Below, piece by piece: positions 31,206-46,869 of a DNA stretch of 64,000 nt. Under the pieces are notes generated by a model. It saw only the letters and a program-made list of their open reading frames with translations, did no database searches and had not been told where the DNA came from. Both the position numbers and the translations under genes were made by a program. The number at the start of each line of letters is the position of its first letter. Within the stretch, counting starts at the first letter, position 1. Origin of the DNA: Acidobacterium sp. S8 (GTDB lineage Bacteria > Acidobacteriota > Terriglobia > Terriglobales > Acidobacteriaceae); the NCBI RefSeq assembly GCF_009765985.1, contig NZ_LMUM01000015.1:1-64000 (forward strand), read 5' to 3'.

Positions 31206-32174
31206 ATGTTCGATCGCTTAAGCGCTGCATTACTTTGCTTTTTCCTGCTGCCCCATGGATGCTCAAATCCTGGATCGCGCCAGAACCTCAGGCTGAAGTA
31301 CCGTGCTACAGGCACGTCTCCCGAAATACTGGCACTCTATGAACCCTGGTTTGGACATCCCAAGCATATCTCTGTTGGCTATTCATCGCATGACCCCAAG
31401 GTGATCGAAAAGCAAATCCACAAGGCCAAGGACATGGGAATCTCGGCCTTCATTGTGGATTGGTATGGTGATCGCGAGCCCTTCATTGATGAAAGTTACA
31501 AGTTGATGCAAACTATTGCCGCCAAAAAGAAGCTCCAGGTTGCAATGTTGTATGACGAAACCGACGAAGAAGAAGGCGCTACGGATGAGGCTATCGCAGA
31601 TTTCAGAACCTTTCGCGATACTTATCTGGCCCAAAATGCGCCTGGACGCGAAGCATATCTCACTTATCAAGGCCGTCCAGTGATCTTTATTTTCCCGAAG
31701 GGGAATCATACGGACTGGAACAAAGTGCGCTCTGAAGTCAATAAGTGGAATCCTGCACCCATTCTGATTACAGAAAACTTACCCGACAAGTACATGAATG
31801 CCTTCGATGGATTTTATGCCTGGGTACAGCCTGGAAGTAAGGGCTGGTCTGCAGACGGGAGTAATTGGGGGGAGGACTACCTGAATAACTTCTACGATGT
31901 CATGCGGTCAAAGCACCCAGACAAGATTGTAGTCGGGGGAGCCTGGTCAAGCTTCGATGACAGCAAAGCATCATGGGGGTTAAATCGTCATATATCTGCG
32001 CGCTGCGGACAAACCTTTACTGATACCTTTAACTATTGGAAGAAGTATTTCTCTGCAGATGACCCAATTCCATTCATTCTTGTAGAGACTTGGAATGACT
32101 ACGAAGAAGGGACTGCAGTTGAACCGGGAATTCCAACCTGCAAAGATCAGCCGCAAGCTATCCCTGCACACTAA
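31206..32174 (+). CDS. GH99/GH71-like glycoside hydrolase, secreted
   Basis: 322 aa. The N-terminus has a hydrophobic signal ending in L-P-H-G-C, possibly a lipobox. The body matches GH99-like (endo-alpha-mannosidase/mannanase) and GH71 proteins: ILALYEPWFGHPKHISVGY, G-I-S-A-F-I-V-D-W-Y-G (about residues 79-89), VAMLYDE-T-D, and the C-terminal ILVETWNDYEEGTAVEPG (about 294-311), where the W-N-D-Y-E-E-G-T signature carries acidic candidates for catalysis. Predicted TIM barrel acting outside the cytoplasm on alpha-mannan-like glycans. The exact linkage is unknown. It is transcribed divergently from the flippase-fusion operon. Confidence 0.75.
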   Translation: MFDRLSAALLCFFLLPHGCSNPGSRQNLRLKYRATGTSPEILALYEPWFGHPKHISVGYSSHDPKVIEKQIHKAKDMGISAFIVDWYGDREPFIDESYKLMQTIAAKKKLQVAMLYDETDEEEGATDEAIADFRTFRDTYLAQNAPGREAYLTYQGRPVIFIFPKGNHTDWNKVRSEVNKWNPAPILITENLPDKYMNAFDGFYAWVQPGSKGWSADGSNWGEDYLNNFYDVMRSKHPDKIVVGGAWSSFDDSKASWGLNRHISARCGQTFTDTFNYWKKYFSADDPIPFILVETWNDYEEGTAVEPGIPTCKDQPQAIPAH

Positions 32175-32259: not shown

Positions 32260-33240
32260 TTATGCTACCCGTGCAATCTTGTCTGAAAACTCTTCCTCGA
32301 AGCTAAGTTCACCCTCAACTGCCAACGCATCAGAGGTATAGATTTTGTTGATGATCGAGAGGGGCCGACGCCGTACTTCGTCATGAACGCGTCCGAGGTA
32401 CTCGCCCAGTACTCCTAAGCACAGGAACATGAAGCTTCCGAGCAGAAAGATTGCAGAAGTCACGCCAAAGCCGACAGCATCGATCTGGTTCTTCGAGAAA
32501 ATCGCCAGAAGACCAAGCACGAAAACCGTCAGGCAAGAGATGGCAGACATCAGGAAGCAGAGCCGAAGCGGTTTATAGCTGAAGCTCGTAATAGCGTCCA
32601 TTGCATACTTGATCCGGCTGATGAACGAAAGCTTGCCCTCGCCAGCAGCGCGATCGTGCCGGTCGTAGTAGACCACTCCAGTTTTATATCCAACCCACGC
32701 CCGGATGCCGGGCAGATACCGGTTGATTTCGCCCATGGAATTCATCGAATCAACCGCTTGACGATCCATGAGGCCGAAAATGCCCGCATTCAGTGGAATT
32801 GGGTAATCGGAGAGGGCTCCAAGAACGCGGTAAAACATCGGGAAGAGCAGGGCAAGAACCTTGCGAGATTCCTGACGGCTCCGGCGCACCGCGGTCACAA
32901 CCTGAGCTCCGTCTTTCCACGCCTGTATCAATTGAGGTACGACTTCCGGTGGATCCTGAAAATCACCGTCCATGAGAACGACTGCGTCGCCGCTTGCTAC
33001 CTTAAGCCCCGCGGAGATTGCTCCCATATGACCCCAGTTGCGCGAAAGATCTGCGACCACCACATGCGGATCGTTGGCCTGAAGTTCCTGCAAGAGAGAA
33101 AGTGAGGAATCGCGGGAGCCATCATTGACATAAACAACCTCCCACTCTTCGTGAGTTGTGTCTAGTGCATTTGCAATCGCCTGGTGAAACGGGAAAATAT
33201 TTTCTTCTTCGTTGAAGATAGGAACAACTACAGAAATCAT
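32260..33240 (-). CDS. Membrane glycosyltransferase family 2 (DPM1/GtrB/ArnC-like)
   Basis: 326 aa from the ATG at 33240, chosen because AAGGAG lies 8 nt upstream and M-I-S-V-V-V-P-I-F-N-E-E-E-N is the GT2 opening (the frame is open to 33324). Motifs: VVYVNDGSRDSSL, VVLMDGDFQDPPEV (DxD region, about residues 94-107), and the R-x-x-R-Q-E-S-R segment. Two C-terminal TM helices follow (about 230-250 and 262-285), ending in G-E-Y-L-G-R-V-H-D-E-V-R-R-R-P, typical of polyisoprenyl-phosphate hexose synthases. The product is likely an undecaprenyl-phosphate sugar used on the periplasmic side. Confidence 0.9.
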   Translation of the reverse strand: MISVVVPIFNEEENIFPFHQAIANALDTTHEEWEVVYVNDGSRDSSLSLLQELQANDPHVVVADLSRNWGHMGAISAGLKVASGDAVVLMDGDFQDPPEVVPQLIQAWKDGAQVVTAVRRSRQESRKVLALLFPMFYRVLGALSDYPIPLNAGIFGLMDRQAVDSMNSMGEINRYLPGIRAWVGYKTGVVYYDRHDRAAGEGKLSFISRIKYAMDAITSFSYKPLRLCFLMSAISCLTVFVLGLLAIFSKNQIDAVGFGVTSAIFLLGSFMFLCLGVLGEYLGRVHDEVRRRPLSIINKIYTSDALAVEGELSFEEEFSDKIARVA

Positions 33241-33363
33241 TTTTTGTACTCCTTGGGTCTGTTCAGTAATCAACAACGCTTGCTTTGTACTTATTTTTCT
33301 TGCCGGCTGTGCTTGGGGAATCACAGCCTTGTACGTTCTCTTACTAAAATTGGATTTCGAACG

Positions 33364-33861
33364 TTACTGAGAATCCGCCTGAAAAAGACGAACTCTCCAC
33401 CTTGCCTCAGCGGGAGTGAGAACGACAACGTACCGAGCATGCACCCGCTGCGTGGTTAAAACTTTGTCGTGATCGAGAACCTGGGTATCGTAATCCACGT
33501 TATCGATCAGCTGAATGGATAGACCCTCGGGAGAGTAAAAGACTATCTGAATGTCGTGCGCGCGATCCTGGTATCTGGTACGAATTCCCAGGCTCGCCTG
33601 CTGTTGAATTGTGGCTGCAAGCTTGTCGTGCGCGGTTCCCACGAAGTCGGGATCAAGCAAAGCAGCATTGTTTTGATCGAGCGCTGTATGCAAACTCTGC
33701 CATGACTGGAGGTAGTCACGAATGACGGCACTTTGAGTTTGCCCTTGAAGCTGCCTCGGCCCTTGAAAATTAGTGGGTTGCACATGTACTGAAACTTGAT
33801 CATCGCCAAAGGCGAAGGAAGCTGTCAATACTATTGTTGCGGCGAGAATATGTTTGATCAT
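33364..33861 (-). CDS. Secreted NTF2-like protein of unknown function
   Basis: 165 aa from the ATG at 33861 (GGGGAGG 6 nt upstream, lying inside the end of the preceding gene; an ATG at 33876 is less likely). The signal peptide is I-L-A-A-T-I-V-L-T-A-S-F-A-F-G. The mature protein has the helix-then-beta order of a SnoaL/NTF2-like fold (Y-L-Q-S-W-Q-S-L-H-T-A-L-D-Q-N-N-A-A-L-L..., ARYVVVLTPAEARWRVRLF). No catalytic residues can be assigned. Last gene of the four-gene coupled operon. Confidence 0.68.
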   Translation of the reverse strand: MIKHILAATIVLTASFAFGDDQVSVHVQPTNFQGPRQLQGQTQSAVIRDYLQSWQSLHTALDQNNAALLDPDFVGTAHDKLAATIQQQASLGIRTRYQDRAHDIQIVFYSPEGLSIQLIDNVDYDTQVLDHDKVLTTQRVHARYVVVLTPAEARWRVRLFQADSQ

Positions 33862-33863
33862 AA

Positions 33864-34733
33864 CTATCCTCCCCACCGAATCTCATTGCCCATCACAATT
33901 CCGCTGGCGGCTGAGATCTTCGCACCGCGGCGAGCAGGTAATTCCACTTGAGCGATTCCACGCTTGAGTGGAACGTCCACCGTCGACTGATTACCGTTAT
34001 ACGTCTCTGTGAAGGTTACGATTGTTCCGTCAGGTATCGCATTTCCGCCGCAGTCCCGTACCGGATCAGTCTGCAAAGCAATATTTTGTCCCGCCGGGCG
34101 TGCTGTAATTCTGAGCGAGCACGGGTCGCCGGGAACCTGCTGAATGATGCGCTCGCTGGAAACACCGCCGGCATTCGCCACAAACTTCGCTGCGCCTTCC
34201 TTAGCGCCGGAATTCATCTCTGTCCATGCGGCTCCGTCGCGTGTCGTTACTGTGCGGGCTTGCACAGGACTGGAGAGATTTGAAAGGGCAAACGATATCG
34301 GCAAGGGCTTTGTCACCAGGTTCTGATATGCATCGAAAACATAAACTGCCCCCGTTATTCCATTCTGCAAACTGACTGGAAGACGGGAAGGTTTTGCAAG
34401 GAAGCTTAAAGTTGCTGGCTTGCTCGACGATAAGACATCAAATGCACCATTTTCGGTTGCCTCTCCTGCCGCAAGAATTACCAGGTAGTGACCAGAGTTA
34501 TAGAGAGTGCCTGCGGGAAAGGTTACTGTTTCTCCTAATTGCACGTCACGACGTAACGCCTGAGCAGGACTAACGATATACAGAACGCCTTTACCAGTGC
34601 CGGTGGTTTGAATGGAGAAGGCGCTGCCAGCCTCGACACTCGTCGGCACCTTGATACCGGAGCCTTGAGCGCGAGCAGCTGGCATCAAGAGCGCAGCGAA
34701 CCCTCCGAGGAGAAATGCGAGTCGCAACCTCAT
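33864..34733 (-). CDS. Secreted Ig-like/beta-sandwich protein of unknown function
   Basis: 289 aa with a signal peptide ending L-M-P-A-A-R-A-Q. The mature part is all-beta, with three likely Ig-like modules: I-K-V-P-T-S-V-E-A-G-S-A-F-S-I-Q at the start, Q-N-G-I-T-G-A-V-Y-V-F-D-A-Y-Q-N-L-V in the middle, and a last module (NAIPDGTIVTFTETYNG and Q-V-E-L-P-A-R-R-G) resembling Big_1/invasin-type folds. I see no enzyme motif. Its ATG overlaps the TGA of the upstream gene (ATGA), and its own end contains the ribosome site of the next gene. Confidence 0.68.
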   Translation of the reverse strand: MRLRLAFLLGGFAALLMPAARAQGSGIKVPTSVEAGSAFSIQTTGTGKGVLYIVSPAQALRRDVQLGETVTFPAGTLYNSGHYLVILAAGEATENGAFDVLSSSKPATLSFLAKPSRLPVSLQNGITGAVYVFDAYQNLVTKPLPISFALSNLSSPVQARTVTTRDGAAWTEMNSGAKEGAAKFVANAGGVSSERIIQQVPGDPCSLRITARPAGQNIALQTDPVRDCGGNAIPDGTIVTFTETYNGNQSTVDVPLKRGIAQVELPARRGAKISAASGIVMGNEIRWGG

Positions 34734-35857
34734 TGCATACTCCCTGCGCTGTAGGTAGTGGTGAAAGCCCGTTCGCTGCTCACTTTTCTTGCGAGGTCTT
34801 CTGGTACCGTGATGCGGAAGGGAACCGGAGTTTGTGGCTGGAGTGCGCGGTCGATATATTGATCCGCAACCCAGACGAGCTGCCCTGACTTGTCGTAGAA
34901 GGTACCCAGGACATGGGCAATGTTCACTACCTGTCCACTCTGGTTCACCAACTGGCCTGTAAGCGACGCGCCCGGCGCCGGGTTGAACTGCTGGTCCTGG
35001 ATTGCAATCACCGGATCTGCCGAAGCGGAAACCAGAGACGCTGAAGGATCCATACGCACGCTGCTTACATCCGACAGCGACACGTTGTGAAAGGTGATGA
35101 GGAAGGGCGTGACCTGCTTTGGAAGAAGGAGATGGGCGATCTTGTCGAAACTGCCTTCGCTCGCGATGACAGAGCCGTTCTTAGCCAGGAGTGTCGCCTT
35201 CACCGAGACGTGAGCAGGCACGATATCTTCGTTGAGAAGCTCGCCCATGATCACTACGCCATCGGCGCGCTCGACGGGGTGCATATCGACGATGCGTACA
35301 TGAGGTGCCTCAACATCCTGGGCGCCCCAATCATCGCCGGCGCCGCGGTAGATTACATCCCAACGCAGGTAGTTGACTGGGATGACCTGCGGGGGAACGC
35401 GTGTTTCCTTTACAATCGGCCACTGAACTTGCCAGCGGTCGCCGTTCTTAACAACGTGCAGGTCGCGGGTCTCGGGAAAAGTACCCACTACCGTTGACCA
35501 GTGCAGCCGGAGTTGCACTTCAGCTTCGTTCGCGCTGGAATGCAGCGGGCGCAGATCGAAGTTCTCCAGTGTTGCATAGGTGCGAAGGCTGAGACGGTTT
35601 CCAGTCAGGTCTTGTTGAAATTCGGGCTGCGTAAACTCAGCCTTATTCGCAAGGCTGGAATATGCTTTTCCCCAGTCCCGGCGGCCAATATCCTGTGCAA
35701 GGTTGGTTACTGCCGCTTCGGGTGTTGACGAAGATTGAAGCAGATTTCCACCACCCGCCAGCGCCAATGCGGCTGCATTCGGCCAAAGGGTTCCGATTAC
35801 GATCAGCGCGACAGTCGCACCGGCGATCAATATCGCTAGAAGTTTTCCTTTATTCAC
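34730..35857 (-). CDS. Envelope protein with N-terminal anchor and beta-sandwich (FxLYD-like) region
   Basis: 375 aa from the GTG at 35857, supported by GGGAGG 8 nt upstream and by the GTGA overlap with the upstream stop. A single TM helix near the N-terminus (LLAILIAGATVALIVIGTLW) is followed by a globular NTF2-like part (TPEAAVTNLAQDIGRRDWGK, A-Y-S-S-L). Two FxLYD-like beta domains follow (V-V-I-M-G-E-L-L-N-E-D and GQLVNQSGQVVNIAHVLGTF, Y-D-K-S-G-Q), a pattern known from bacterial envelope proteins of unknown role. Function is not recognisable. The tight overlaps suggest it works with the membrane protein encoded before it. Confidence 0.7.
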   Translation of the reverse strand: MNKGKLLAILIAGATVALIVIGTLWPNAAALALAGGGNLLQSSSTPEAAVTNLAQDIGRRDWGKAYSSLANKAEFTQPEFQQDLTGNRLSLRTYATLENFDLRPLHSSANEAEVQLRLHWSTVVGTFPETRDLHVVKNGDRWQVQWPIVKETRVPPQVIPVNYLRWDVIYRGAGDDWGAQDVEAPHVRIVDMHPVERADGVVIMGELLNEDIVPAHVSVKATLLAKNGSVIASEGSFDKIAHLLLPKQVTPFLITFHNVSLSDVSSVRMDPSASLVSASADPVIAIQDQQFNPAPGASLTGQLVNQSGQVVNIAHVLGTFYDKSGQLVWVADQYIDRALQPQTPVPFRITVPEDLARKVSSERAFTTTYSAGSMQ

Positions 35858-37605
35858 GATACCAGCCTCCCGGATGCAATGTCGTCGTGGGTGATGGCAT
35901 CTTGGTCCGTCGGATTTTCCTGCCACCGTTTATCTGGAATCAGCACGATCAACAGCGCCAGAAGGCTGCTGCCGAAAGGCAGAATTCCCCACATCAGACC
36001 CTGCCAGTGAGGCGGCATCTGCGCCGCGTTCAGCGGAGTTGCCGGCGGTACGCCATCCTTCATCCACACGGCGATCGTATTATCTTCGAGGTCGTCCACG
36101 TGACGCCATCCGGCGAAGGAAAGCAGTGGCTCGTAATAGGGATCCTTGAGGAACACCCACTTCAGCCCGTACTTATCCGCGTGACCTAAGATCGCCGTCA
36201 GCGCATCGGTTCCTTGTTTGCCGAAGTACTTTGAGCTGGTCAGTGCCCCTGCTCCATGCTCGGTCAGCTCTGGAAGCATGCGGCCTGAATTCCACTCACC
36301 ATCGACGCTGCCTGCATCCGTCAATACGGCCAGGCGTGCGATTTTATTGCCGAAGCCGAGCGTGACGTACCGATAGTTGTCGTGCCCGTCGCGGTTCAGC
36401 CATGCGGCCACAGAGTCAACTTGGAAGTTCGACGCGTCAGCCGGGTGATACACGACCCAGGCAACTGACAGTCCACAAGTCAATGTTGCCGCCACACTCA
36501 GTCCAATGACCGCCCGCATGCGGAATCGATCAATCAGTTCAGAAGCCAGCAACCCGACGAAGGGGAGGGCAAGCAGGGTCGCCCAGTAGCTGAATCGCTC
36601 CATGGTCAACACTTCATACGCGCGACCGAGCACAAGATGCCCAACCGGCGTAGTACCGCCGAGACCAACCAGCATCGCAACCCAGAAGCCGAGCAGCAGG
36701 GGCCGCAGCCGCACTGAAATGGCGCCGCGCCAGATGATGAACGGTATGGCGAGTACCAGGGCTCCGTAAGGAATGATGAAGTAGTTCAGCCCCCACTCCG
36801 GACTTAAAATATAGTTAGCGCGGCTGGGATGCGGAATCGGAGTCTGCGTGACCGGATAGTGAATCAGCGCGATCCAGAAAGGCAGCAGCACAAGCGCAAT
36901 TCCGGCACCTACTACGACTGCGATCGAAACAGTGCGAGCGATGAAAGAAGGAGTTGAGGTGGGTTCACCCTCATTACGGTCAATCAACACCAGCGCCAGA
37001 ACCGGCAGGGCAAAAAAGAATGAGCCGAAGAGAAGCGTCGCGTGGTGGGCCGCCGCAGCAGCGACGAAGAGTACGCTGCCCTTCAGGAATGACCGCCAGC
37101 TGCCGTGTCGCACCCAGTCGAAGAGATAGGGAAGAGCATTAAGATAAATCGGAGCGGCCGAGGTCGTTCCAAGCTGGCCTGCGGAATATACCAGAAAGCT
37201 TTCGGAACCGAGAAAAACGCTTGCTAATGCAGCATAGGATGCCGCGCGCGGGCTGACCCACAGAAGCGAGAAGCGGTATACACCAACAACGAGTAGCAGA
37301 ATGGCAGCAAACTGGACCGCCATGTAGGCCATATCCAGGCCCGTAATATGCGAGATCAGAGCCACCCACTGCTGAGGAAGCGGAGGATATGTGGCCTGTG
37401 AAAATCCCGCGTACCATTTTGTGTTCCAGGGATCAAACCAGTGATGAACGTAGTGCGATGCGAAGAAAATATGAAAATTTGTGTCATATGACTTCAAAGG
37501 AAGTTTCATGAGCAGCAAAGGCAGATGTACCGCACATGCAGCCAACATAATGAAAGTCATTGACAATGGTGGGGTAACGGGTGTGGCAGACAAGGTTTTA
37601 CGCAA
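35854..37605 (-). CDS. Large integral membrane protein (PTPS-related / GT-C-like)
   Basis: 583 aa with about 11-12 TM segments and a C-terminal soluble loop (about residues 380-530). The N-terminus L-P-L-K-S-Y-D-T-N-F-H-I-F-F-A-S-H-Y has an acidic residue and His in the first loop, as in GT-C enzymes. Y-S-A-G-Q-L-G-T-T-S-A-A-P-I-Y and the general layout resemble the 6-pyruvoyl-tetrahydropterin-synthase-related membrane family (PF10131), which despite the name is thought to be glycosyltransferase-like. A mannosyl/arabinosyl-type transfer from a polyprenyl donor is possible but unproven. First gene of a minus-strand operon with GTGA and ATGA overlaps to the next genes. Confidence 0.72.
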   Translation of the reverse strand: MRKTLSATPVTPPLSMTFIMLAACAVHLPLLLMKLPLKSYDTNFHIFFASHYVHHWFDPWNTKWYAGFSQATYPPLPQQWVALISHITGLDMAYMAVQFAAILLLVVGVYRFSLLWVSPRAASYAALASVFLGSESFLVYSAGQLGTTSAAPIYLNALPYLFDWVRHGSWRSFLKGSVLFVAAAAAHHATLLFGSFFFALPVLALVLIDRNEGEPTSTPSFIARTVSIAVVVGAGIALVLLPFWIALIHYPVTQTPIPHPSRANYILSPEWGLNYFIIPYGALVLAIPFIIWRGAISVRLRPLLLGFWVAMLVGLGGTTPVGHLVLGRAYEVLTMERFSYWATLLALPFVGLLASELIDRFRMRAVIGLSVAATLTCGLSVAWVVYHPADASNFQVDSVAAWLNRDGHDNYRYVTLGFGNKIARLAVLTDAGSVDGEWNSGRMLPELTEHGAGALTSSKYFGKQGTDALTAILGHADKYGLKWVFLKDPYYEPLLSFAGWRHVDDLEDNTIAVWMKDGVPPATPLNAAQMPPHWQGLMWGILPFGSSLLALLIVLIPDKRWQENPTDQDAITHDDIASGRLVS

Positions 37606-37825: not shown

Positions 37826-40800
37826 TTGATTGCAAGGTTTAGCTATTTAAAGGGCGTACTTACGTTCTCCCTTATTGTTGCACTGTCTTGGCCACTCGGA
37901 GCGCAAACTTACCAGGTAGGACCCGACTCAAAGGCAACGCCTAAGAGCTCGGCCGGTCAGGCGCAGCAGCAGCCAGATGGCCAGTCTCTGGGCTGGGGAT
38001 CGAACATTCAAAATGCGCGCCTCGCACGGGCTGCCCAGCTGGCTCTCCAGCGCGGCGACCACGCGCAGGCTGTGGAATATGCTCAGCGCGCCGCACAGGC
38101 AGCTCCAAGCGATCCTCAGCTATGGTTCCTGCTGGGTTACGCGGCTCGGCTCGATAGCAAGACGCAGTTGGCAATCGACGCTTACAATCACGGCCTTCAC
38201 TTGAATCCATCGTCCCTGGAAGGCCTTTCCGGCCTGGCTCAGACCTACAACGTTATGGGCCGCACAGAGGATGCTGAGCGGCTGCTGAAACAGGTGCTTG
38301 CTGCCGATCCGCGGCGCAAGGATGACGCGCTGCTCCTTGGCGACATCTACATGAGGTCCAGCGATTACACTTCCGCCCTCGATTGGCTGGGCAAAGCCGA
38401 GCGAATGGAGCCTTCGGCGCGGTCTGAGTTGTTGATGGCGCTTTCCTATCAGCATCTCAAGCAAATGGACATGGCAAATCGCTACCTGGAACTGGCCAAG
38501 CGCCACGCGCCCGATAATCCGGAAGTACAGCGTTCGCTCGCAGGATATTACCGAGAGACAGGCAATTATTCCGCTGCAATTGCATCGTTGAAGGCGATCA
38601 AAAATCCCAAGCCGGACGTTACGGCAGAACTCGCGTATACCTATCAGCTCGATGGCAAACTGGACCAGGCTGCTGCAATTTATGCGCAGGCCGCAAATGC
38701 GATGCCGCGTGATCTAGGCCTCCAGCTTTCTGCCGCGCAAGCAGCTGTTGCAGCAGGGTCGATCGATCATGCTGATTCTTTCCTGAAACGCGCGGAAGTA
38801 ATCGATGCTGATTACTATCGTTTGCACGCGATTCGCGGACAGATTGCCCAAATCCAGGAACGCGATCCTGACGCCGTTCGCGAATACAGCGTTGCCATTG
38901 CTCACCTACCGGCTTCGCCGGTCGAAGGGCAGCTCTACGGTATTCAGCTGCACATGGATTTAATGCAGCTTTACAAGAATCTCAACGAGACCAATGAGGC
39001 GCAGCAAAACCTCGAAATCGCCAAAACTGAAATCGGAAAAATAGACGATCGCGGACCGGGAAGAGGACAGTTCCTCCGTCTTCGCGCTCTCATCAAAATG
39101 AACGATGGTCAGCTCGATAGCGCATTGAGTGATATGAATGAAGCTCTCGCGCTCAATTCCGGCGATCTCAACAATCTGCAGCTCGATGGCGATTTGCTGA
39201 TGAAGATGGGCCGCACGGAGCAGGCAATCTCGGCTTACAAACAGATTCTTACAGCAGACAAGAACAACCGCTTCGCTCTTACTTCACTCGGCTATGCTTC
39301 ACGCGCCGCGGGTCGTGACGAGGATGCTATAAAATATTTCCAGCAACTCGCCAGAGCCTATCCTACGCTATACGTCCCCTACCTTGCTCTTGGAGATATG
39401 TACACCGCACATCGGGAGTTTGCGAAAGCTGAAGCCCTCTATAAAAAGAGCTTTGCACTGGCTCCCAAAAACGTAGCCATCGTCACCGGCGGGATGAATG
39501 CCGCAATCGAAGCGCATAATACCGATCTCGCTGGAGTGTGGTTAGGCCGCTCGACTGATGACATGCAGCACGATCCGCACTTCATGCGTGAAAAGGAAAG
39601 ATATCTCCGGTTCAAGGGCAACTACGAAGAATCTGCAAAGATCGGCAGGGAAGCCATTCAAGCATTGCCTAAAGACCGCGATGTTGTGGTCTATCTCGGG
39701 TACGATCTCCTGAATCTGAATCAGTACGATGAGTTGCTGACCCTTACAGATAAATACAGGAATGTCTTTCCACAGGAACCCGATATTCCTCTCCTCGCCG
39801 GCTACGTGCACAAGCACCAGGGCGAGTCCGAATTGGCGAAGCAAGACTTCACAGAAGCACTGAATCGCGATCCCAATGTCGTGACCGCGTATGTCAACCG
39901 TGGCTATATGCTGAACGATTTGCATCAGCCTGCGGATGCAGCTTCAGACTTCGAAGCGGCAATCAAGCGCGAGCCGAAAAACGGCGAAGCGCATCTTGGA
40001 CTCGCATATGCGAACCTCGATATGCATAAATCGCAAGCTGCGGTGAAGGAATCCGAGCTAGCCGAGGCGGAGATGGGCGATTCGCTGCCTCTCCATCTGA
40101 TTCGCGCAACGGCATATGCCCGCGAAGGTATGCTATCCAAGGCTGCGGACGAATATCAGGTGGCCTTGAAATTCTCGCCGCACGATGGTTCGCTTTATCT
40201 GGCCCTGGCGGGAGTGCACTACTCGCAGCGCGAATATCATCAGTCCATCGACGATCTTCAGACGGCGCAGAGGCTCTTGCCTGACGATCCTAAGATCTAC
40301 GCTCTGCTTGCGCGTTCCTATGCGGAGTTGCCGGACAAAGACCAGACGCTCCACTATGTCGAGCTCGCCGAGCAGCATGCGCAGCCTGACGCGAAAGATC
40401 CCGACTCGCGGCCGAGTGCCATCTACATCTCTACCGGCCAGGCTCTAAGCACCGTTGGAGATCAGCATGGAGCGATGGATCGCTTCAGCAAGGCACTCAC
40501 TGCAGCAGGCAGCAACCGCGTCGGCGTGCGTCTTGCGATTGCGCAGTTAATGGCTATGCAGGGCAATGCCGACGATGCGAAACGACAGATCGCGCTCGCA
40601 CAGATGGAAGCTCAGACGGGAGACACGTCAGCCCCCTCGGCTGATCAATATATTGCAGCGGCGGATGTATTCCGCAGTCTGCACGAATACGACTTGTCTC
40701 AAAACTATCTTGATCGAGCCCAGGCCGCAGGCGCTCCCGATGCCTCCGTAAGAATCGGCATGGCAAATAACTATCTCGCAGTCGGCGACACCGCCAGGGC

Positions 40801-42052
40801 TAAAGGTGAGCTCGCTGCAATTCCTGATAACGATGAGAGCGCAGAGAGTTACCAGTACCTGATGGCAAAGGCAAACATCTTTCGCCAGGAACATCAGGGA
40901 GCGCAGGCGTTGACTGCTTTCGCCGAGGCAACCAACGCCGCGGGCGAGGATCAATCTGCTGAGCAGAACCTGCTCTCCGCGGGTGCAGACGAGGGATTGC
41001 GTATCAATCCGACCCTCAGCGTGCTCACCAACTTCTCCATCGATCCAATCTACGAAGATACGACAGTGTATGTTCTGGACTCCAAGCTCGATGCCCCGAC
41101 GCCAATCGCAAGCAATGAAAGCAGCCTGCTTCCACCGCCGCGCTCGTCGCTGCAAACACAGTGGACAGGCGCCTATCACCTTCATCTCGGCGAAATGGCT
41201 CCCGCTGCGGGTGGCTTCGTTCAGATTCGACATGCAAACGGTCAGATCTCGGTACCGAGCACGAATACCATCGTGAATCGAAGCACGACCGACTATACGT
41301 TCAACTTCGGCGTAAGTCCCACGGTTCACTTCGGATCGAATGTGCTGACCTTCAATCCCGGCATTCAGGGAACAATTCGCAGGGACTCGGAATCACCTGT
41401 CGAGATGGATCAGAATCTTCTGCGCGAGTTTGTATATGCAAGCACCAGCTCATTCTTCAATGCAGTCTCTGTCAGCGGATATTTCATTCATGAATCAGGC
41501 CCCTTTACGGAAAGCGATCAGCACTCGCAGGCGTTGACAGGTGCGGTTGATTTTCGCGTGGGTTCGCCCTGGGGTAAAACGGCTCTTGTGACCGGCTGGG
41601 GTGCGAATCATCAGGAATACTCGCCGCAGAATTATAAGAACTACTACACCTCGTCTTACATCGGTCTTGAACGCAGGTTCGGAGATCGGCTGAATGTGCG
41701 GGCTGTGGCGGAAGATTTGCGCGCATGGCGCGTCTTCGGAGATAACTCCGCTATTGCGCAGAACCTCCGCCCAAGCGGTACCGTTGATTTCACTCCATCC
41801 CGCAGTTGGGACGTGCAGGGCAGCTTCGCTTACTCGAGCACGCGAGGGTTCCACGTATACGACGCAATGCAGAGCGGGTTTTCAGTCTCGTATGCAAGAC
41901 CGTTCCATCGCAAATTTAACGCTGAAGATGGGGAAGTATCCCTTCAATATCCCATTCGTTTCTCGGCAGGCATGCAAGACGAGAGCTTCTTCAATTTTCC
42001 CGGAGCACATAGCCAGCAATTCCGGCCATACGTAAGCATTACGTTGTTTTAA
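37826..42052 (+). CDS. Giant TPR protein with C-terminal outer-membrane beta-barrel (BcsC/PgaA-like)
   Basis: 1408 aa with a TTG start (AGGTG 5 nt before). Signal peptide: LTFSLIVALSWPLGAQ. Residues about 60-1030 are some two dozen TPR-type helical repeats (for example Q-L-W-F-L-L-G-Y-A-A-R-L, A-I-S-A-Y-K-Q-I-L). From about residue 1055 the sequence becomes beta-rich with alternating aromatic/polar strands (W-T-G-A-Y-H-L-H-L-G, Y-T-F-N-F-G-V-S-P-T-V-H-F-G, Y-V-S-I-T-L-F) and ends in Phe, the outer-membrane insertion signal. This architecture is that of BcsC and PgaA/PelB-type exporters, which pass a polymer through a periplasmic TPR scaffold and a 16-strand barrel. A synthase partner is not obvious nearby. 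The next gene (22 nt later) is a glycosyltransferase. Confidence 0.85.
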   Translation: MIARFSYLKGVLTFSLIVALSWPLGAQTYQVGPDSKATPKSSAGQAQQQPDGQSLGWGSNIQNARLARAAQLALQRGDHAQAVEYAQRAAQAAPSDPQLWFLLGYAARLDSKTQLAIDAYNHGLHLNPSSLEGLSGLAQTYNVMGRTEDAERLLKQVLAADPRRKDDALLLGDIYMRSSDYTSALDWLGKAERMEPSARSELLMALSYQHLKQMDMANRYLELAKRHAPDNPEVQRSLAGYYRETGNYSAAIASLKAIKNPKPDVTAELAYTYQLDGKLDQAAAIYAQAANAMPRDLGLQLSAAQAAVAAGSIDHADSFLKRAEVIDADYYRLHAIRGQIAQIQERDPDAVREYSVAIAHLPASPVEGQLYGIQLHMDLMQLYKNLNETNEAQQNLEIAKTEIGKIDDRGPGRGQFLRLRALIKMNDGQLDSALSDMNEALALNSGDLNNLQLDGDLLMKMGRTEQAISAYKQILTADKNNRFALTSLGYASRAAGRDEDAIKYFQQLARAYPTLYVPYLALGDMYTAHREFAKAEALYKKSFALAPKNVAIVTGGMNAAIEAHNTDLAGVWLGRSTDDMQHDPHFMREKERYLRFKGNYEESAKIGREAIQALPKDRDVVVYLGYDLLNLNQYDELLTLTDKYRNVFPQEPDIPLLAGYVHKHQGESELAKQDFTEALNRDPNVVTAYVNRGYMLNDLHQPADAASDFEAAIKREPKNGEAHLGLAYANLDMHKSQAAVKESELAEAEMGDSLPLHLIRATAYAREGMLSKAADEYQVALKFSPHDGSLYLALAGVHYSQREYHQSIDDLQTAQRLLPDDPKIYALLARSYAELPDKDQTLHYVELAEQHAQPDAKDPDSRPSAIYISTGQALSTVGDQHGAMDRFSKALTAAGSNRVGVRLAIAQLMAMQGNADDAKRQIALAQMEAQTGDTSAPSADQYIAAADVFRSLHEYDLSQNYLDRAQAAGAPDASVRIGMANNYLAVGDTARAKGELAAIPDNDESAESYQYLMAKANIFRQEHQGAQALTAFAEATNAAGEDQSAEQNLLSAGADEGLRINPTLSVLTNFSIDPIYEDTTVYVLDSKLDAPTPIASNESSLLPPPRSSLQTQWTGAYHLHLGEMAPAAGGFVQIRHANGQISVPSTNTIVNRSTTDYTFNFGVSPTVHFGSNVLTFNPGIQGTIRRDSESPVEMDQNLLREFVYASTSSFFNAVSVSGYFIHESGPFTESDQHSQALTGAVDFRVGSPWGKTALVTGWGANHQEYSPQNYKNYYTSSYIGLERRFGDRLNVRAVAEDLRAWRVFGDNSAIAQNLRPSGTVDFTPSRSWDVQGSFAYSSTRGFHVYDAMQSGFSVSYARPFHRKFNAEDGEVSLQYPIRFSAGMQDESFFNFPGAHSQQFRPYVSITLF

Positions 42053-42074: not shown

Positions 42075-43541
42075 ATGAAAATCTGTTTAGTTGCGACATT
42101 CCCCCCCAGTGGACGCCAGTTAAATGAATACGCGCTACATATCGCGCGGGAATTGCAAAACAATCCCGATGTGAGCCTGACCATTCTTGCCGATGAATTG
42201 ACGGATTATGAATTCGCCACGGATGGCAACGGCCAATCGATCAATGCTAAGGAACAACCTGAGTTGCCCGGGTTCAATGTCATCCGTTGCTGGAAGTTCA
42301 ACAGCCTGGCTACACCCATGCGGCTGTTAAACACCATTCGCGAGTTAAAGCCAGATATTGTGTGGTTCAATCTCGTTTTTTCCAGCTTCGCGACGCCCGA
42401 TAATCCGCTGGCTGCGTTTGCGGGTCTTTCAGCGCCCGCACTTACACGTTCTTCCGGCTTCTACACGCACGTCACTTTGCATCACATTATCGAGCATATC
42501 GATTTTGCGGCAGCCGGTGTACGCAGAGAGAAACTCTATCGCATGGGAACGAACGTGGCTACCAAAGCCCTGTTGAAGGCGAATTCCGTTTCTGTCCTGC
42601 TGTCCGGGTATCGCCGCACGCTCATGGAAAAGTATGCAGCACAAAACGTCCTGCTGGGAACTCATGGAACGCTGACATCCGTTCCGACACCTCCGGACTT
42701 CTCCAAGCGTGGCAATCCTGAAGTTCGCATCCTGGCAATCGGACATTGGGGAACTTATAAGCGTCTGGAAACGCTGATGGAGGCCTTTCCTGCCGTTCTG
42801 GAAGCGGTTCCGAATGCGAAACTCATCATCGCCGGCGCCAATCATCACACTAAGGCTGGCTATTGGGAATCGATACGCGAAGCACAGCCCGCACATCTGC
42901 CCATTGAATTCCGCGGCTATGTTCCCGAAGACGATATTCCAGAGCTGATGCAGTCTACATCGCTTCTCGTTCTGCCATACGATTCTGCAACCGGCTCCAG
43001 CGGACCGGCCCATCAGGCCTGCGAATATGGAATACCAGTCGTCTCTGCCGATCTCCACGACTTCCGTGAGATGGCGGAGGACGAACACATGTCGATCCGC
43101 TTCTATAAGAAAGGTGACTCCGAAGATCTGGCCAGCCAGATGATTTCCATCTTGAATTCGGCGGAAACTCTGTGGCAAATGTCGGAACAGAACTACGCTG
43201 CTGGAATACAGATGACGATGGCCAGTGTTGTCAGAAATTATCTTCGCTGGTTTGAACTTAATAAATACAAGCGATCCATTGGACGTCACGGCTCGCTTCG
43301 GCGTCGTGGACGCCATTGGTTTCGTTCCCGTTCTACAAAGTGGCAAGACTCTTTGCATGAAGGACGCAACTCCCAAGACAAAGATGGCGCAGGAGCGCAC
43401 TTTGAATTGGAAGTTGCCGACACAATGACACCAGCGCTGGAATCGGCACTCCTCCATGCCCGGCTTGGAAATCAAGCTGATGTAGAACGTCCTGCTGGCG
43501 ATGGCTACAAGACAAATCCGGTACTCGAAACAGATTTTTAA
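42075..43541 (+). CDS. Glycosyltransferase family 4 with unusual C-terminal tail
   Basis: 488 aa. The GT-B core ends at about residue 400. The acceptor half starts MKICLVATFPPSGRQLNEYALHIARELQ. The donor half has VRILAIGHWGTYKRLETLMEAFP, LIIAGANHHTKAGYWESI, and LLVLPYDSATGSSGPAHQACEYGIPVVSAD, a variant of the EX7E region in which the first Glu is Asp/Ser. The last 85 or so residues are basic then polar and low in complexity (R-R-R-G-R-H-W-F-R-S-R-S) and not part of the GT fold. A 348-aa frame on the opposite strand is a shadow. The gene follows the beta-barrel exporter closely and is probably cotranscribed. Confidence 0.85.
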   Translation: MKICLVATFPPSGRQLNEYALHIARELQNNPDVSLTILADELTDYEFATDGNGQSINAKEQPELPGFNVIRCWKFNSLATPMRLLNTIRELKPDIVWFNLVFSSFATPDNPLAAFAGLSAPALTRSSGFYTHVTLHHIIEHIDFAAAGVRREKLYRMGTNVATKALLKANSVSVLLSGYRRTLMEKYAAQNVLLGTHGTLTSVPTPPDFSKRGNPEVRILAIGHWGTYKRLETLMEAFPAVLEAVPNAKLIIAGANHHTKAGYWESIREAQPAHLPIEFRGYVPEDDIPELMQSTSLLVLPYDSATGSSGPAHQACEYGIPVVSADLHDFREMAEDEHMSIRFYKKGDSEDLASQMISILNSAETLWQMSEQNYAAGIQMTMASVVRNYLRWFELNKYKRSIGRHGSLRRRGRHWFRSRSTKWQDSLHEGRNSQDKDGAGAHFELEVADTMTPALESALLHARLGNQADVERPAGDGYKTNPVLETDF

Positions 43542-43564: not shown

Positions 43565-43653
43565 ACTTTGGATTCGCTCTGCCTGAAGATGAGCAGCTTT
43601 AACCGTAAAACTACGCGATAGCTGCGTGCGTGAATGTGAGAAGGAGAACACCC

Positions 43654-46600
43654 TTGACGACCTTATTCTTTCCCCGATCTATTAGCCGATTTCGTACCTC
43701 AGTGTCTTTGGTCGCGGCGCTTTTGTTCGGTGTTGTGCTAGTAGGATGTGGCACTGACCATCAAGAGGGAGTGACTCCGCCATCTGCGCCCACTGTCAGT
43801 ATCACTTCCAGTGCCACTACGATAGCGCCTGGACAGTCGGCGACTTTATCGGTAACAGCTACGAATGCATCGCAGGTCGTCGTCGCCGGAACCGATGGCA
43901 GCTCCTATACGCTGCCGGCCAACGGGGGATCACAGGTCGTCACGCCCACTGCCACGACGACCTATACGGCAACGGCAAGCGGTAACGGAATGTCAGCCAC
44001 CGCGCTTACGAAAATTACGATCTCAGCGTCGCCCGCCCCAACGGTTGCAATCACGGCTAGTCCCGCCAGCATTGCACCCGGAGATTCTTCCGTTTTAACC
44101 GTGACGGCAGCAAACGCCACGCAGGTGACGATCTCTGGATCGGACGGTTCCTCATACAGTCTGCCTGCAACTGGCGGCACGCAATCTGTCACACCCACGG
44201 CAACCGCTACTTATACTGCAACTGCTACGGGAGCAGGTGGAAGTACCACGGCAACTGCTACCGTAACCGTTACTGCGACCCCTCCTCCTGGAACTCCAAC
44301 AGTCACCATTACACCGAGTCCAACAGCGGTCACGCCTGGCCAATCGTCTACGCTCACCGTAACTGCAACCAACTCCACGCAAGTCACAATCGCCGGTTCC
44401 GATGGCAGTTCCTATACTCTTCAACCGACTGGCGGCACGCAATTGGTGACGCCGATGACGACGACTACCTATACCGCGACAGCAACCGGCGCGGGTGGAA
44501 CCGTTACGGCAAAAGCCACAGTTACAGTCACGCCGAATCCACCCCCTACCGTTATTATTTCGGCGAATCCCACTGCCATCACGCAGGGAAGCTCATCGCT
44601 TCTTACTGTCACTGCTACCAATGCAACGCAGGTGACGATTACCGGTTCGGATAAGAGCTCCTACACGCTGCCAGGAACCGGCGGAGCACAGCCGGTTTCA
44701 CCCGCAGCGACAACGACCTATACCGCCACCGCGACCGGACCGGGTGGAACCATTACTGCTACCGCTACGGTTACTGTTACGCCCAATCCAATTCCAACGG
44801 TCACAATGACCGCTAGCCCGGCGTCAGTCACGGCAGGGAACTCATCCACACTGACAGTTAGTTCTGCCAATGCTACGACGGTGACGATTACAGGCAATGA
44901 TGGCAGCAGCTATACTCTGGCTTCTGCAAACGGCGCTCAGGCGGTGACACCGGCAAAAACAACGACTTATACAGCGACTGCCACTGGTCCAGGCGGATCA
45001 GCCAACGCTACAGCGACAGTCACTGTAACGCCCGACCCGATTCCGACTGTGAATATCACAGCTAACCCGACGACGATTATCGCGGGCAATACCTCTACCC
45101 TTACCATCACCGCTACGAATGCCACTCAGGTGACTGTAGCCGGTTCCGATGGAACCTCCTATAGCATCCCCACGAGCGGAGGATCGCAACCAGTCACGCC
45201 GGCAAAGACCACTATCTATACCGCTACCGCAACCGGCGCTGGAGGAAGTGTCACAAACAGCACGACTGTGACCGTTACGCCTGCTGGCACCGTTCAGTCG
45301 ATTGATCACGTCGTCTTCATGCTCCAGGAAAACCATACCTTTGATAATTACTTCGGTATGCTCAATCCCTATCGCAAATCCAACAACTACTACAAAGGCG
45401 ATGACGGCAAGGAATACGACGTAGATGGTATCGATGACAAACTGACCACAATAAGCAATGTCAACGATGAAGGCACATCCTATGCGCTCTTCAAGTTGAA
45501 GAGCACCTGCGTCGATGACATGAGCTCAGACTGGTTAGCCAGCTTTGGAGATGTAAACCGCTATAACTTCCTGACCGACCGCCCGATCGTCATGGATGGC
45601 TTCGTGCATAACGCTGAAGGCTATGCCACGAGCTGCAAGAATTCGACCTCATGCTCGGGTACTTTCACTGATACTGCAGGCCAGCGCTCGATGGGCTATT
45701 ACGATGAAGGCTACTTGAACTACTACTACTACATGGCCTCGCAGTTCGCCCTCTCAGATCGTTGGTTCTCACCCATCGCCAGCAAGAGCATTGATAACCG
45801 CATTGCAACGTTTACCGGAGGTACCACCCAGGGATTGGTAAAAGATCCGGGAGGCGACGACCACCTGACCAGCCAACTTGCCATCACCACCATCTTCGAG
45901 AAATTGGATAACGCGAAAGTGTCCTGGAAGATTTATTACACGGTCACGCAGGGCTTCTGTCTCGACCAGGATGACTGCACAGGTGGTCCGAGCGCCAGAT
46001 ATCCCGCAACTGACTTCTCGAATCTCTCTTATTCATATCAATACCTGCACGAAAACACTCCAGATCAGCCGTGCGTGGCGCCGACCGTACCTTCGAGCGC
46101 AGTGGGAGACGATACGAATTCTTTCTGCATCGATACGGATCACATAGCGCCACTATCGCAGTACTACAGCGATGTGAATAACGGAACATTGCCTAGCTTC
46201 GCTTTCATTGAAGCAGGCTATGGAAATAACGACGAGCATCCCGGCTCCGGGCAATCCGTACTCATGGGACAAGCGCAGGTGGCGAATATAGTGAATACCT
46301 TCATGAAGAGTCCTTCATGGAAGGATTCTGTTTTCTTCCTCAGCTACGATGAAGGCGGTGGTCCGTACGAACACGTACCGCCGGTCCCTAACCATTCCAA
46401 CGACAACACCAGTGCTTCGCTCGGAACGATTCCGGATATCTCGGGAATTACGGTAAGTCCGGATACCTACAAACCGTGTATTCCAACCGGAGCAGCCGAC
46501 GACCCTTCCAGGACGCACTGCGACCTATCAGCCATCGACCCGGGAGCCAACTCAGGCGATGCAGCAGCGCAACAGGGCTTCGCCGCGCAACTCGGCTTCC

Positions 46601-46869
46601 GTCTGCCGAACATAGTGATCTCTCCGTTCACACGACGTCATTATGTTTCGCATATTCCCATGGATCATACCGCCGTGATCAAATTCGTCGAAAACCGGTT
46701 TATCGGCTCTTCGGCGCACCTGACCGCTCGTGACGCCGCGCAACCCGCTTTGCTCGATTTCTTCGACTTCGACAATATTCCGTGGGCCACGCCGCCTGCA
46801 CCGCCTACACCAGTTACTGCAGAGTCGTTGGGTACCGATCCATGCACACCAACCAGCATGGGCCCGTAG
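43654..46869 (+). CDS. Lipoprotein phosphoesterase (PLC/acid phosphatase-like) with six Ig-like repeats
   Basis: 1071 aa from the TTG at 43654 (AGAAGGAG 8 nt upstream; an in-frame GTG lies at 43630). The signal ends in L-V-G-C, a lipobox. Residues about 45-545 are six tandem Ig-like units of about 84 residues (P-T-V-x-I-T-x-x-P, then Q-V-T-I-x-G-S-D-G-S-S-Y, then T-T-T-Y-T-A-T-A-T-G). The enzyme domain begins at about 550 with IDHVVFMLQENHTFDNYFG, the PF04185 (phospholipase C / acid phosphatase) signature. It continues with FFLSYDEGGGPYEHVPP and M-D-H-T-A-V-I-K-F-V-E, whose Asp/His ligate metal. It hydrolyses phosphate esters at the cell surface. The Ig stalk probably holds the catalytic domain away from the membrane. 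The cation antiporter gene follows 26 nt later. Confidence 0.88.
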   Translation: MTTLFFPRSISRFRTSVSLVAALLFGVVLVGCGTDHQEGVTPPSAPTVSITSSATTIAPGQSATLSVTATNASQVVVAGTDGSSYTLPANGGSQVVTPTATTTYTATASGNGMSATALTKITISASPAPTVAITASPASIAPGDSSVLTVTAANATQVTISGSDGSSYSLPATGGTQSVTPTATATYTATATGAGGSTTATATVTVTATPPPGTPTVTITPSPTAVTPGQSSTLTVTATNSTQVTIAGSDGSSYTLQPTGGTQLVTPMTTTTYTATATGAGGTVTAKATVTVTPNPPPTVIISANPTAITQGSSSLLTVTATNATQVTITGSDKSSYTLPGTGGAQPVSPAATTTYTATATGPGGTITATATVTVTPNPIPTVTMTASPASVTAGNSSTLTVSSANATTVTITGNDGSSYTLASANGAQAVTPAKTTTYTATATGPGGSANATATVTVTPDPIPTVNITANPTTIIAGNTSTLTITATNATQVTVAGSDGTSYSIPTSGGSQPVTPAKTTIYTATATGAGGSVTNSTTVTVTPAGTVQSIDHVVFMLQENHTFDNYFGMLNPYRKSNNYYKGDDGKEYDVDGIDDKLTTISNVNDEGTSYALFKLKSTCVDDMSSDWLASFGDVNRYNFLTDRPIVMDGFVHNAEGYATSCKNSTSCSGTFTDTAGQRSMGYYDEGYLNYYYYMASQFALSDRWFSPIASKSIDNRIATFTGGTTQGLVKDPGGDDHLTSQLAITTIFEKLDNAKVSWKIYYTVTQGFCLDQDDCTGGPSARYPATDFSNLSYSYQYLHENTPDQPCVAPTVPSSAVGDDTNSFCIDTDHIAPLSQYYSDVNNGTLPSFAFIEAGYGNNDEHPGSGQSVLMGQAQVANIVNTFMKSPSWKDSVFFLSYDEGGGPYEHVPPVPNHSNDNTSASLGTIPDISGITVSPDTYKPCIPTGAADDPSRTHCDLSAIDPGANSGDAAAQQGFAAQLGFRLPNIVISPFTRRHYVSHIPMDHTAVIKFVENRFIGSSAHLTARDAAQPALLDFFDFDNIPWATPPAPPTPVTAESLGTDPCTPTSMGP
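43789..45290 (+). repeat. Six tandem about 250-bp Ig-like repeats
   Basis: Repeat openings (P-T-V-x-I/M-T/S) fall at about 43789, 44038, 44299, 44548, 44797 and 45043, with spacing of 246-261 bp. Coding is Thr/Ala/Gly/Ser rich. Copies are similar in protein but have diverged in codon usage, unlike the HAMP array. Confidence 0.85.

Follow-up and report, generated by a model that had tools for sequence, protein, structure and literature searches.

A TPR-barrel protein of Acidobacterium sp. S8 and its conserved gene cluster: a putative exopolysaccharide exporter in Acidobacteriaceae

The TPR-barrel protein studied here is not an orphan; it has a conserved gene cluster of its own, which contains parts of several known polymer pathways. 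We propose that it probably serves as outer-membrane exporter for an exopolysaccharide pathway of its own, whose genes surround the barrel gene. Such a pathway is the best explanation of the predicted folds, the linkage and the shared distribution that were observed, and from these we infer every enzymatic step, the direction of transport and the product. The window analysed is a stretch of 64,000 nucleotides of Acidobacterium sp. S8 (contig NZ_LMUM01000015.1), and its relevant features are collected in Table 1.

Table 1. Features of the window, with basis of assignment or occurrence in loci with long flanks
Feature	Position	Strand	Basis or occurrence
Wza	3609-4694		Wzx/Wzy locus of the window
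Wzc-like	7037-9241		Wzx/Wzy locus of the window
Wzy-like, below cut-off	9351-10712		Wzx/Wzy locus of the window
Thymidylate-kinase-like protein, in several relatives close to the Wzx-like gene	27323-28015	-	11/43 full-flank loci
165-aa protein without assigned family, in several relatives close to the Wzx-like gene	28023-28520	-	6/43 full-flank loci
STAS-domain protein beside the Wzx-like gene	28556-28951	-	6/43 full-flank loci
656-aa Wzx-like (Polysacc_synt) transporter with C-terminal D/E-G-N-H-R domain without family	29023-30993	-	25/43 full-flank loci
322-aa lipoprotein-like GH99/GH71-like glycoside hydrolase	31206-32174	+	39/43 full-flank loci
GT2 with two C-terminal TMs	32260-33324	-	29/43 full-flank loci
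170-aa protein, hydrophobic N-terminus, presumed periplasmic accessory	33364-33876	-	41/43 full-flank loci
289-aa protein, signal-like N-terminus by eye, presumed periplasmic accessory	33864-34733	-	42/43 full-flank loci
398-aa protein, one N-terminal TM, presumed periplasmic accessory	34730-35926	-	43/43 full-flank loci
583-aa polytopic GT-C-fold protein (oligosaccharyltransferase/ArnT-like), divergent neighbour of the exporter	35854-37605	-	Predicted fold, linkage, distribution
1408-aa putative polysaccharide exporter, TPR scaffold and C-terminal 16-strand outer-membrane barrel	37826-42052	+	Pfam, AlphaFold2, structural matches
488-aa GT4 glycosyltransferase, directly downstream of the exporter	42075-43541	+	42/43 full-flank loci
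372-aa protein, membership uncertain, often adjoins the cluster in relatives	52197-53315	+	26/43 full-flank loci

Predicted fold of the exporter

The initial annotation had described a TPR-barrel protein ending in Phe. The ORF is real, with a TTG start and, by eye, a signal-peptide-like N-terminus. An alignment of the window protein with relatives from 42 of the 80 fetched loci was made (A2; L129, with a stop codon within the stretch, was left out). Phe is the last residue in 43/43 sequences, with the stop codon directly after it in 42/42 relatives; a C-terminal aromatic residue is a feature of the TPR-barrel exporter fold class.

Pfam TPR-type families have matches in the protein up to about residue 1035. 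AlphaFold2 modelling of residues 889-1408 from the 43-sequence alignment (mean pLDDT 88.3, pTM 0.78) gave a model in which the TPR helices lead into 16 long strands of at least 11 residues at about residues 1064-1407; two further strands have 4 residues each. Closure of the 16 strands into a barrel is suggested by their matches to solved barrels, rather than taken from the coordinates. The predicted model thus joins a periplasmic TPR superhelix to a C-terminal 16-strand barrel, as the initial annotation had anticipated.

The best structural alignment over both TPR and barrel (VIA) was to PelB (9h80_M, Z 19.9, 335 residues, rmsd 3.9), with PgaA (4y25, Z 18.0) within 2 Z units and BcsC (6tzk) at Z 16.3; in Foldseek, BcsC leads (9b8a, E 3.4e-9). 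These matches agree with the exporter-type fold claimed at the outset, while on the barrel alone barrels of other function score equally (CymA, Z 18-19; OmpG-type, Z 17). The description as BcsC/PgaA-like holds for the fold, but not for the sequence families. The NCBIfam PgaA model gave 76 bits against a cut-off of 366, and Pfam found no BCSC_C match in the ORF. The barrel alignment had no profile similarity to the barrel of the genome's own BcsC, and its matches among sequences of solved structures were all of TPR type. Because of the missing profile relation to BcsC, the exporter reading leans on predicted structure and context.

Filing the protein under cellulose (BcsC) or PNAG (PgaA) was rejected on these family results. 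Both systems share the TPR scaffold and 16-strand barrel, but BcsC is accompanied by BcsA and BcsB, which are not found near the exporter, the genome's BcsC lying elsewhere; PgaA goes with PgaC in PgaABCD, whereas no BcsA- or PgaC-type synthase lies beside the exporter in the window, as initially noted.

The conserved gene cluster

A search of genome contigs yielded 120 exporter relatives, and the best 80 of these were retained for analysis. The full-flank set of Table 1 consists of the 43 loci that have long flanks. Across these 43, linkage of the barrel with the GT4, GT-C and GH99-like genes and with the three presumed periplasmic proteins is near-universal. The GT-C gene is present in 43/43; it lies upstream, divergent and within 700 bp of the barrel in 57/64 loci, further out in 6, and was not found in one (L054). 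The next gene downstream of the barrel encodes GT4 in 62/78 loci and the Wzx-like protein in 14/78. The GT4, GT2 and Wzx-like neighbours named in the initial annotation are all present, but it had left the closest and most constant partner, the GT-C protein, unnamed.

The predicted model of the GT-C protein has a multi-helix GT-C membrane domain, which matches OST (Z 23.1), PglB (Z 18.3) and ArnT (Z 17.6) over about 430-450 residues. Asp41, after the first helix, is invariant in the 35 aligned sequences (A3: 34 of 65 loci with usable GT-C extent, and the window; L093, with a stop codon in the stretch, and L126, of odd length, were excluded). We take this residue to be the acidic residue of the first external loop, its membrane side and catalytic role being presumed. 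The fold and the invariant Asp are shared with STT3/AglB/PglB and ArnT, GT-C enzymes with polyprenyl donors; by sequence, however, the protein is only weakly PTPS_related (matched in 25/35 members at E values of 1 or lower, the best being 3.3e-7), and its alignment gave weak unrelated matches only against sequences of solved structures (best E 0.19).

The GT2 is nearest to PgfS (246/500 bits) and ArnC-type transferases (157/529 bits), both below cut-off. The GH99-like protein has an invariant Cys19 and invariant acids in its WNDYEEG stretch. Pfam GH99 scored 31.7 bits against the window protein (cut-off 33), and matched 16/16 aligned members at E up to 0.01 (A5: 15 of 54 found, and the window); the alignment matches the endo-alpha-mannosidase 4acy (E 1.8e-10). 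In the Wzx-like alignment (A4, 24 members: 23 of 25 found, and the window), Polysacc_synt matches 19/24 members, and PelG does not appear among the matches listed. By hhalign, this alignment reached a low probability both with the one PelG-hit protein of the 61 genomes (1%) and with the window's canonical Wzx (14%). The D/E-G-N-H-R domain had one unrelated match among sequences of solved structures (E 0.67). GT4 had no such match, whether searched by itself (E up to 0.001) or through its alignment (E up to 0.0001). Alignment A6 comprised 11 of 82 found, and the window.

For the presumed periplasmic proteins, Pfam gave weak NTF2-like (MecA_N) and FxLYD/DUF3426 matches for the 398-aa protein, no family for the 289-aa protein and no credible family for the 170-aa protein. 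The STAS gene occurs in only 6/43 full-flank loci, and is therefore out of reach or not linked elsewhere. The 372-aa protein may be nucleotidyltransferase-like, although Pfam gave no match in support.

Genes of other polymer pathways were sought in the DNA available around the 80 barrel loci. The BcsA-BcsB fusion of the genome had no tblastn match there, and neither did Wza, Wzc, Wzy or Wzx of the window, a search that distant versions could escape. An OPX profile made from five sequences, three of them useful and two mis-framed (L150, L151), recovered the Wza of the window and nothing else; the same Wza is matched by two further OPX proteins of the genome. Wzy, Wzc/Wzz and OPX, which a Wzx/Wzy-dependent pathway would have linked to its Wzx, were thus not found around these loci. 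The cluster resembles such pathways in its Wzx-like transporter and GT4/GT2 transferases, but its putative exit is a TPR barrel.

Distribution over 61 genomes and alternative explanations

Near-full-length relatives of the barrel occur in 21/61 genomes, one of them split over two contigs. This is a manual count; an automatic tally of 60/61 takes in TPR cross-matches. The GT-C protein is found in the same 21 genomes and absent from the same 40, and the Wzx-like gene is found in 20 of the 21 and in G015 (shared ancestry uncorrected in both cases). G015 carries the Wzx-like gene but neither barrel nor GT-C; in G006 the barrel is present and no Wzx-like gene was matched. In G026, the barrel locus lacks a Wzx-like gene, and the genome's only Wzx-like match lies in a second GT-C locus without barrel. 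In G001, the only trace of GT-C is a pair of fragments, which lie on other contigs. These exceptions count against the proposed pathway, as does the fact that the Wzx-like gene and the GT2 gene are within reach in no more than 25/43 and 29/43 full-flank loci, respectively.

The initial annotation had offered two possibilities, a mixed pathway or a synthase elsewhere. The mixed pathway is favoured, because the barrel co-occurs with GT-C in 21/21 and with the Wzx-like gene in 20/21 genomes, and because the other loci have exits of their own: the genome's separate cellulose locus, as checked, contains BcsC (C14:231083) together with BcsAB, GH8 and BcsQ, and the window's separate Wzx/Wzy locus (2.1-12.8 kb) has Wza. 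Cellulose BcsC does not track the barrel over the 61 genomes.

The search for an orphan synthase did find a candidate. An unlinked, fused GH18-deacetylase-GT2 (PgaC-like) protein at C29:281441-284935 is the genome's best place against PgaC (181 bits, cut-off 422), and no TPR exporter was found among the ORFs scanned in the surrounding 20 kb. The exporter, which resembles PgaA in fold, could serve this synthase as PgaA serves PgaC, but we consider this improbable. The distribution of the synthase is not tied to the barrel, being 15/21 barrel genomes against 18/40 others (p 0.06, shared ancestry uncorrected) and, inside the family, 15/21 against 13/16 (p 0.70). It is lacking in six barrel genomes, four of which are listed as 95-100% complete, and gave only 5 weak GT2-level tblastn matches around the 80 barrel loci. 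It is very improbable that the exporter instead gives the Wzx/Wzy locus a second gate in the outer membrane: the two polysaccharide loci share a contig, but the Wzx/Wzy locus owns Wza, Wzc-like and Wzy-like genes, none of which was matched around the barrel loci. A different role for the TPR-barrel (receptor, adhesin or general porin) would fit the CymA and OmpG-type scores, since the barrel alone does not reveal the cargo; the near-universal linkage to GT4, GT-C and the GH99-like enzyme, and a polysaccharide exporter as best match spanning TPR and barrel, make this quite unlikely.

PelF belongs to the GT4 class and PelG to the Wzx-like class. In the available text of PMC12141448, PelF elongates the polymer, PelD/E/G bring it across the inner membrane, and modification and export fall to PelA and PelB, respectively. 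The Pel system of Pseudomonas is a precedent for joining a TPR barrel to a GT4 and an inner-membrane protein of the Wzx-like class; the initial annotation had not mentioned it. The cluster could be a strongly diverged Pel system, with GT4, the Wzx-like protein and the barrel in the roles of PelF, PelG and PelB. The linked GT4 and Wzx-like genes are as expected from this, PelB is the top structural alignment, and both clusters contain a glycoside hydrolase. However, the PelB likeness is one of fold only, PgaA and BcsC score close to it or lead, as described above, and PelG (PF16933) had no match in the S8 genome; the one protein that it hits, in a single genome of the 61, fits the general Polysacc_synt model better. 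PelD-, PelA- and PelF-type families, as defined by models that we take to represent them, were found neither among the cluster proteins scanned with Pfam nor among 10 proteins scanned with NCBIfam (the Wzx-like and GH99-like proteins were left out of the latter). No PelC, the lipoprotein ring of Pel, was recognised; the small proteins had no credible Pfam family. The constant partner of the barrel is a GT-C protein, a core absent from the Pel description in the available text of PMC12141448, and the hydrolase is GH99-like. On the results for the PelG, PelF-type, PelD and PelA families we did not file the cluster as Pel, and we regard a diverged Pel system as unlikely.

Proposed pathway

In the dedicated exopolysaccharide pathway that we favour, GT4 and other cytoplasmic transferases would build a saccharide, which the Wzx-like protein would carry over the inner membrane, lipid-linked or as a chain. 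GT2 would supply a polyprenyl-phosphate sugar to the GT-C protein, which may polymerise or decorate the saccharide at the periplasmic face of the membrane. The polymer may then be guided by the TPR superhelix together with the three presumed periplasmic proteins, may be trimmed by the GH99-like lipoprotein, and would be released through the 16-strand barrel. The barrel protein is thus most likely a channel by which a sugar polymer is expelled from the cell. More tentatively, it is possible that the GT-C protein itself builds the polymer in the periplasm from polyprenyl-phosphate sugars, replacing a BcsA-like synthase or Wzy, with the TPR barrel replacing OPX and the D/E-G-N-H-R domain acting as a control or enzymatic part. 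The literature searched contained no description of a GT-C-built polymer leaving by a TPR barrel. The cluster itself was not described in the available text of the literature searched, including PMC7112194, PMC12141448, PMC5259719, PMC9693552 and PMC7112168, which is not proof of absence; in the main text of PMC5259719, on Acidobacteria exopolysaccharides, as available, the terms 'gene cluster', 'operon' and 'synthase' are absent.

The pathway has so far been seen in one family of Acidobacteria, and we read it as an exopolysaccharide system of the family Acidobacteriaceae. Cultured, non-pathogenic soil strains with the cluster include Acidipila rosea DSM 103428 (L091), Terriglobus albidus DSM 26559 (L099) and Occallatibacter savannae AB23 (L076). 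In textbook schemes, every assembly route has an outer-membrane exit of its own. In this cluster, linkage and distribution connect an exit of the synthase type with a GT-C enzyme and a Wzx-like transporter. For one family of soil Acidobacteria, the cluster offers a defined set of genes for forming exopolysaccharide, and it makes the question of which protein polymerises directly testable.

Predicted exporter-type fold of the 1408-aa protein

The 1408-aa protein has an N-terminus judged by eye to be signal-like, and ends in Phe. TPR-type Pfam families reach approximately residue 1035, and no Pfam barrel family was matched beyond it. The NCBIfam models for PgaA (76 bits, cut-off 366) and BcsC (24 bits, cut-off 858) matched through the TPR stretches only. 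Mean column identity across the C-terminal 400 aa was 57% in an alignment of the window protein and 19 relatives, and profile comparison of this alignment with the barrel of the genome's own BcsC revealed no relation.

AlphaFold2 modeling of residues 889–1408 (43 input sequences; pLDDT 88.3, pTM 0.78) predicted TPR helices followed by 16 long strands at approximately 1064–1407, and two additional strands of 4 residues each. The TPR scaffold and terminal Phe noted in the initial annotation are borne out, and the 16 predicted strands probably close into the proposed C-terminal barrel, judging from the matches to solved barrels. Foldseek ranked E. coli BcsC top (E 3.4e-9), PgaA sixth and PelB 27th; AlgE and several porins lay between BcsC and PelB. 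The best VIA-align match was PelB (Z 19.9, rmsd 3.9, 335 residues, model 74–520), followed by CymA barrels (Z 18–19), PgaA (Z 18.0), OmpG-type barrels (Z about 17) and BcsC (Z 16.3). These matches of the model support membership of the exporter-type fold class, whereas the failed family models and profile comparison do not support a family assignment. Filing in the PgaA or BcsC family was rejected, because the scores lay far under the cut-offs and the BcsC profile showed no relation.

Conserved neighborhood and distribution

The best 80 of 120 relatives were examined, a sample biased to close relatives and extending down to 40% barrel identity; 79 of the 80 loci carry acidobacterial labels. 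One record (L095) is labelled as a Rhodanobacteraceae MAG, yet contains an Acidobacteriaceae-type cluster, which may reflect mis-binning or transfer. Of the 64 loci whose upstream flank is 2.3 kb or longer, 57 have the gene for the 583-aa protein divergent and no more than 700 bp from the barrel gene; it is more distant in six (L051, L065, L068, L082, L101, L103), and was not found in one (L054). In the 78 loci whose downstream flank reaches 1.5 kb or more, the next gene was GT4 in 62 and Wzx-like in 14; neither was scored in L083, where a GT4 match overlaps the end, or in L092, where no match was obtained.

Features of the window and genome, and occurrence in the 43 full-flank loci (at least 5.5 kb upstream and at least 8.5 kb downstream; partner counted anywhere in the locus)
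Feature	Position	Loci of 43	Remark
Wzx/Wzy-type locus	2084-12781		separate, canonical; Wzx, Wza/OPX, GT2, GT4, Wzc-like, Wzy-like, GT4
Wzx	2084-3460		separate Wzx/Wzy locus
Wza	3609-4694		separate Wzx/Wzy locus; own exit
Wzc-like	7037-9241		separate Wzx/Wzy locus
Wzy-like	9351-10712		separate Wzx/Wzy locus; 24.6 bits, 31.7 required
1922-aa histidine kinase	18240-24008		many HAMP repeats, GAF, several receiver domains
Wzx-like protein	29023-30993 (-)	25
C-terminal domain of Wzx-like protein	29023-29709		D/E-G-N-H-R motif, CCWY stretch
GH99-like protein	31206-32174 (+)	39
GT2	32260-33324 (-)	29
170-aa protein	33364-33876 (-)	41	presumed periplasmic
289-aa protein	33864-34733 (-)	42	presumed periplasmic
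398-aa protein	34730-35926 (-)	43	presumed periplasmic
583-aa protein	35854-37605 (-)	43
1408-aa protein	37826-42052 (+)
GT4	42075-43541 (+)	42
Phospholipase-like protein	43630-46869	25	after GT4; long, phosphoesterase/phospholipase-C-like; repeated segments ahead of enzyme domain
379-aa TPR protein		28
293-aa protein		28
372-aa protein		26
Thymidylate-kinase-like protein		11
Multicopper oxidase		7
STAS protein		6
165-aa protein		6
Na/H exchanger		1
Fused GH18-deacetylase-GT2 (PgaC-like) synthase	L143:9439-12936		elsewhere in the genome

Our own count placed near-full-length relatives in 21 of the 61 genomes; these 21 all belong to one family, which contributed 37 genomes to the draw. When 396 genomes were drawn from the phylum, six strong matches were obtained, every one in the same family, and one further weak match of 56 positions with an internal stop. 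Across the 61 genomes, barrel and 583-aa protein were present together in 21/21 and absent together in 40/40 (Fisher p 8e-17; within the family 8e-11; p-values here and below ignore shared ancestry), although in one genome (G001) the latter is represented by just two fragments, located on other contigs. The Wzx-like protein was found in 20 of the 21 barrel genomes and one extra genome (p 7e-14).

The predicted GT-C partner and associated enzymes

The 583-aa protein alone matched no Pfam family confidently. At an E limit of 1, PTPS_related matched 25 of the 35 aligned members (best 3.3e-7); DUF6541 matched three (best 1.4e-9). Its model (pLDDT 82.8, pTM 0.86) matched oligosaccharyltransferases (Z 23.1), AglB (21.8), AftD (18.4), PglB (18.3) and ArnT (17.6), enzymes of the GT-C fold, and as modeled the protein has this fold. 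Asp41, directly past the first helix, is invariant (35/35) and is the putative catalytic acid. The GT2 is closest to PgfS and ArnC-type transferases, under their NCBIfam cut-offs. Such transferases produce polyprenyl-phosphate sugars, the donors for many GT-C enzymes; here the GT2 may be paired with the GT-C protein and supply its donor.

The lipobox-like Cys of the GH99-like protein is invariant (16/16). Its alignment matches the Bacteroides-type endo-alpha-mannosidase 4acy (E 1.8e-10), with its NDYEE stretch aligned to the NEWHE stretch of 4acy, the catalytic region of that enzyme. The C-terminal domain of the Wzx-like protein contains an invariant G-N-x-R motif (24/24; x is His in 23), gave no credible match in Pfam or among solved structures (PDB), and exists as a separate protein in several relatives.

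Possible source of the polymer

The initial annotation proposed that the barrel either exports a Wzx/Wzy product or pairs with a synthase elsewhere. The genome has seven Poly_export matches, the window's Wza included. Searches of the retrieved DNA of the 80 barrel loci by tblastn (E up to 1e-5) gave no match for Wza, Wzc, Wzy, the Wzx of the separate locus or BcsAB, and five weak, GT2-level matches for the fused synthase. A broader OPX search of these loci (E up to 1e-3, plus profile) found none, with working queries that recovered the window's Wza.

As for a synthase elsewhere, the genome's cellulose locus (BcsQ, BcsA-BcsB fusion, GH8, BcsC) has its own exporter, and BcsC occurs in 4/21 barrel genomes versus 5/40 others (p 0.71; two of the matches counted are partial). 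The fused synthase is surrounded by tRNA-ligase and metabolic genes and one PMT-like gene. The ORFs scanned over 20 kb included no TPR exporter, so that the genome does contain an orphan synthase. However, its occurrence is not tied to the barrel (15/21 versus 18/40, p 0.06; within the family 15/21 versus 13/16, p 0.70), which makes a synthase elsewhere the less likely alternative. By our own count the fused synthase is present in 33 of 61 genomes, as strong matches including genes that contig ends split or truncate and one that has an internal stop.

In one account of Pel (PMC12141448), PelF elongates in the cytoplasm, PelD, PelE and PelG provide inner-membrane passage, and export is ascribed to PelB, the barrel of which has the same 16-strand fold as those of BcsC and PgaA. 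The barrel cluster resembles Pel in outline, having a GT4, a Wzx-like protein, a hydrolase and a TPR barrel. PelF is a GT4 and PelG is Wzx-like, in agreement with a single protein matching both Polysacc_synt and PelG across the same stretch. What chiefly sets the cluster apart is its constant GT-C partner, and since none of the tested Pel families was present it was not assigned to Pel.

Genome G026 carries GT2, GT-C and GT4 at its barrel locus, and its only Wzx-like match at a second GT-C locus without a barrel. G015 lacks both barrel and GT-C but has a Wzx-like and a GH99-like gene, and no Wzx-like match was found in G006 (12.5-kb contig). Because of these exceptions, the Wzx-like protein may be shared with, or only partly devoted to, the barrel pathway. 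In L154 (G026, contig C61), the second GT-C cluster, a hexapeptide-repeat protein sits between the GT-C and Wzx-like genes, and no barrel is present.

The boldest reading, that the GT-C protein polymerizes in the periplasm and the product exits via the TPR barrel, is conceivable, though rather unlikely. As modeled, the barrel is an exporter-type protein, and the polysaccharide cluster to which it belongs is conserved, confined to one family and hybrid in composition.
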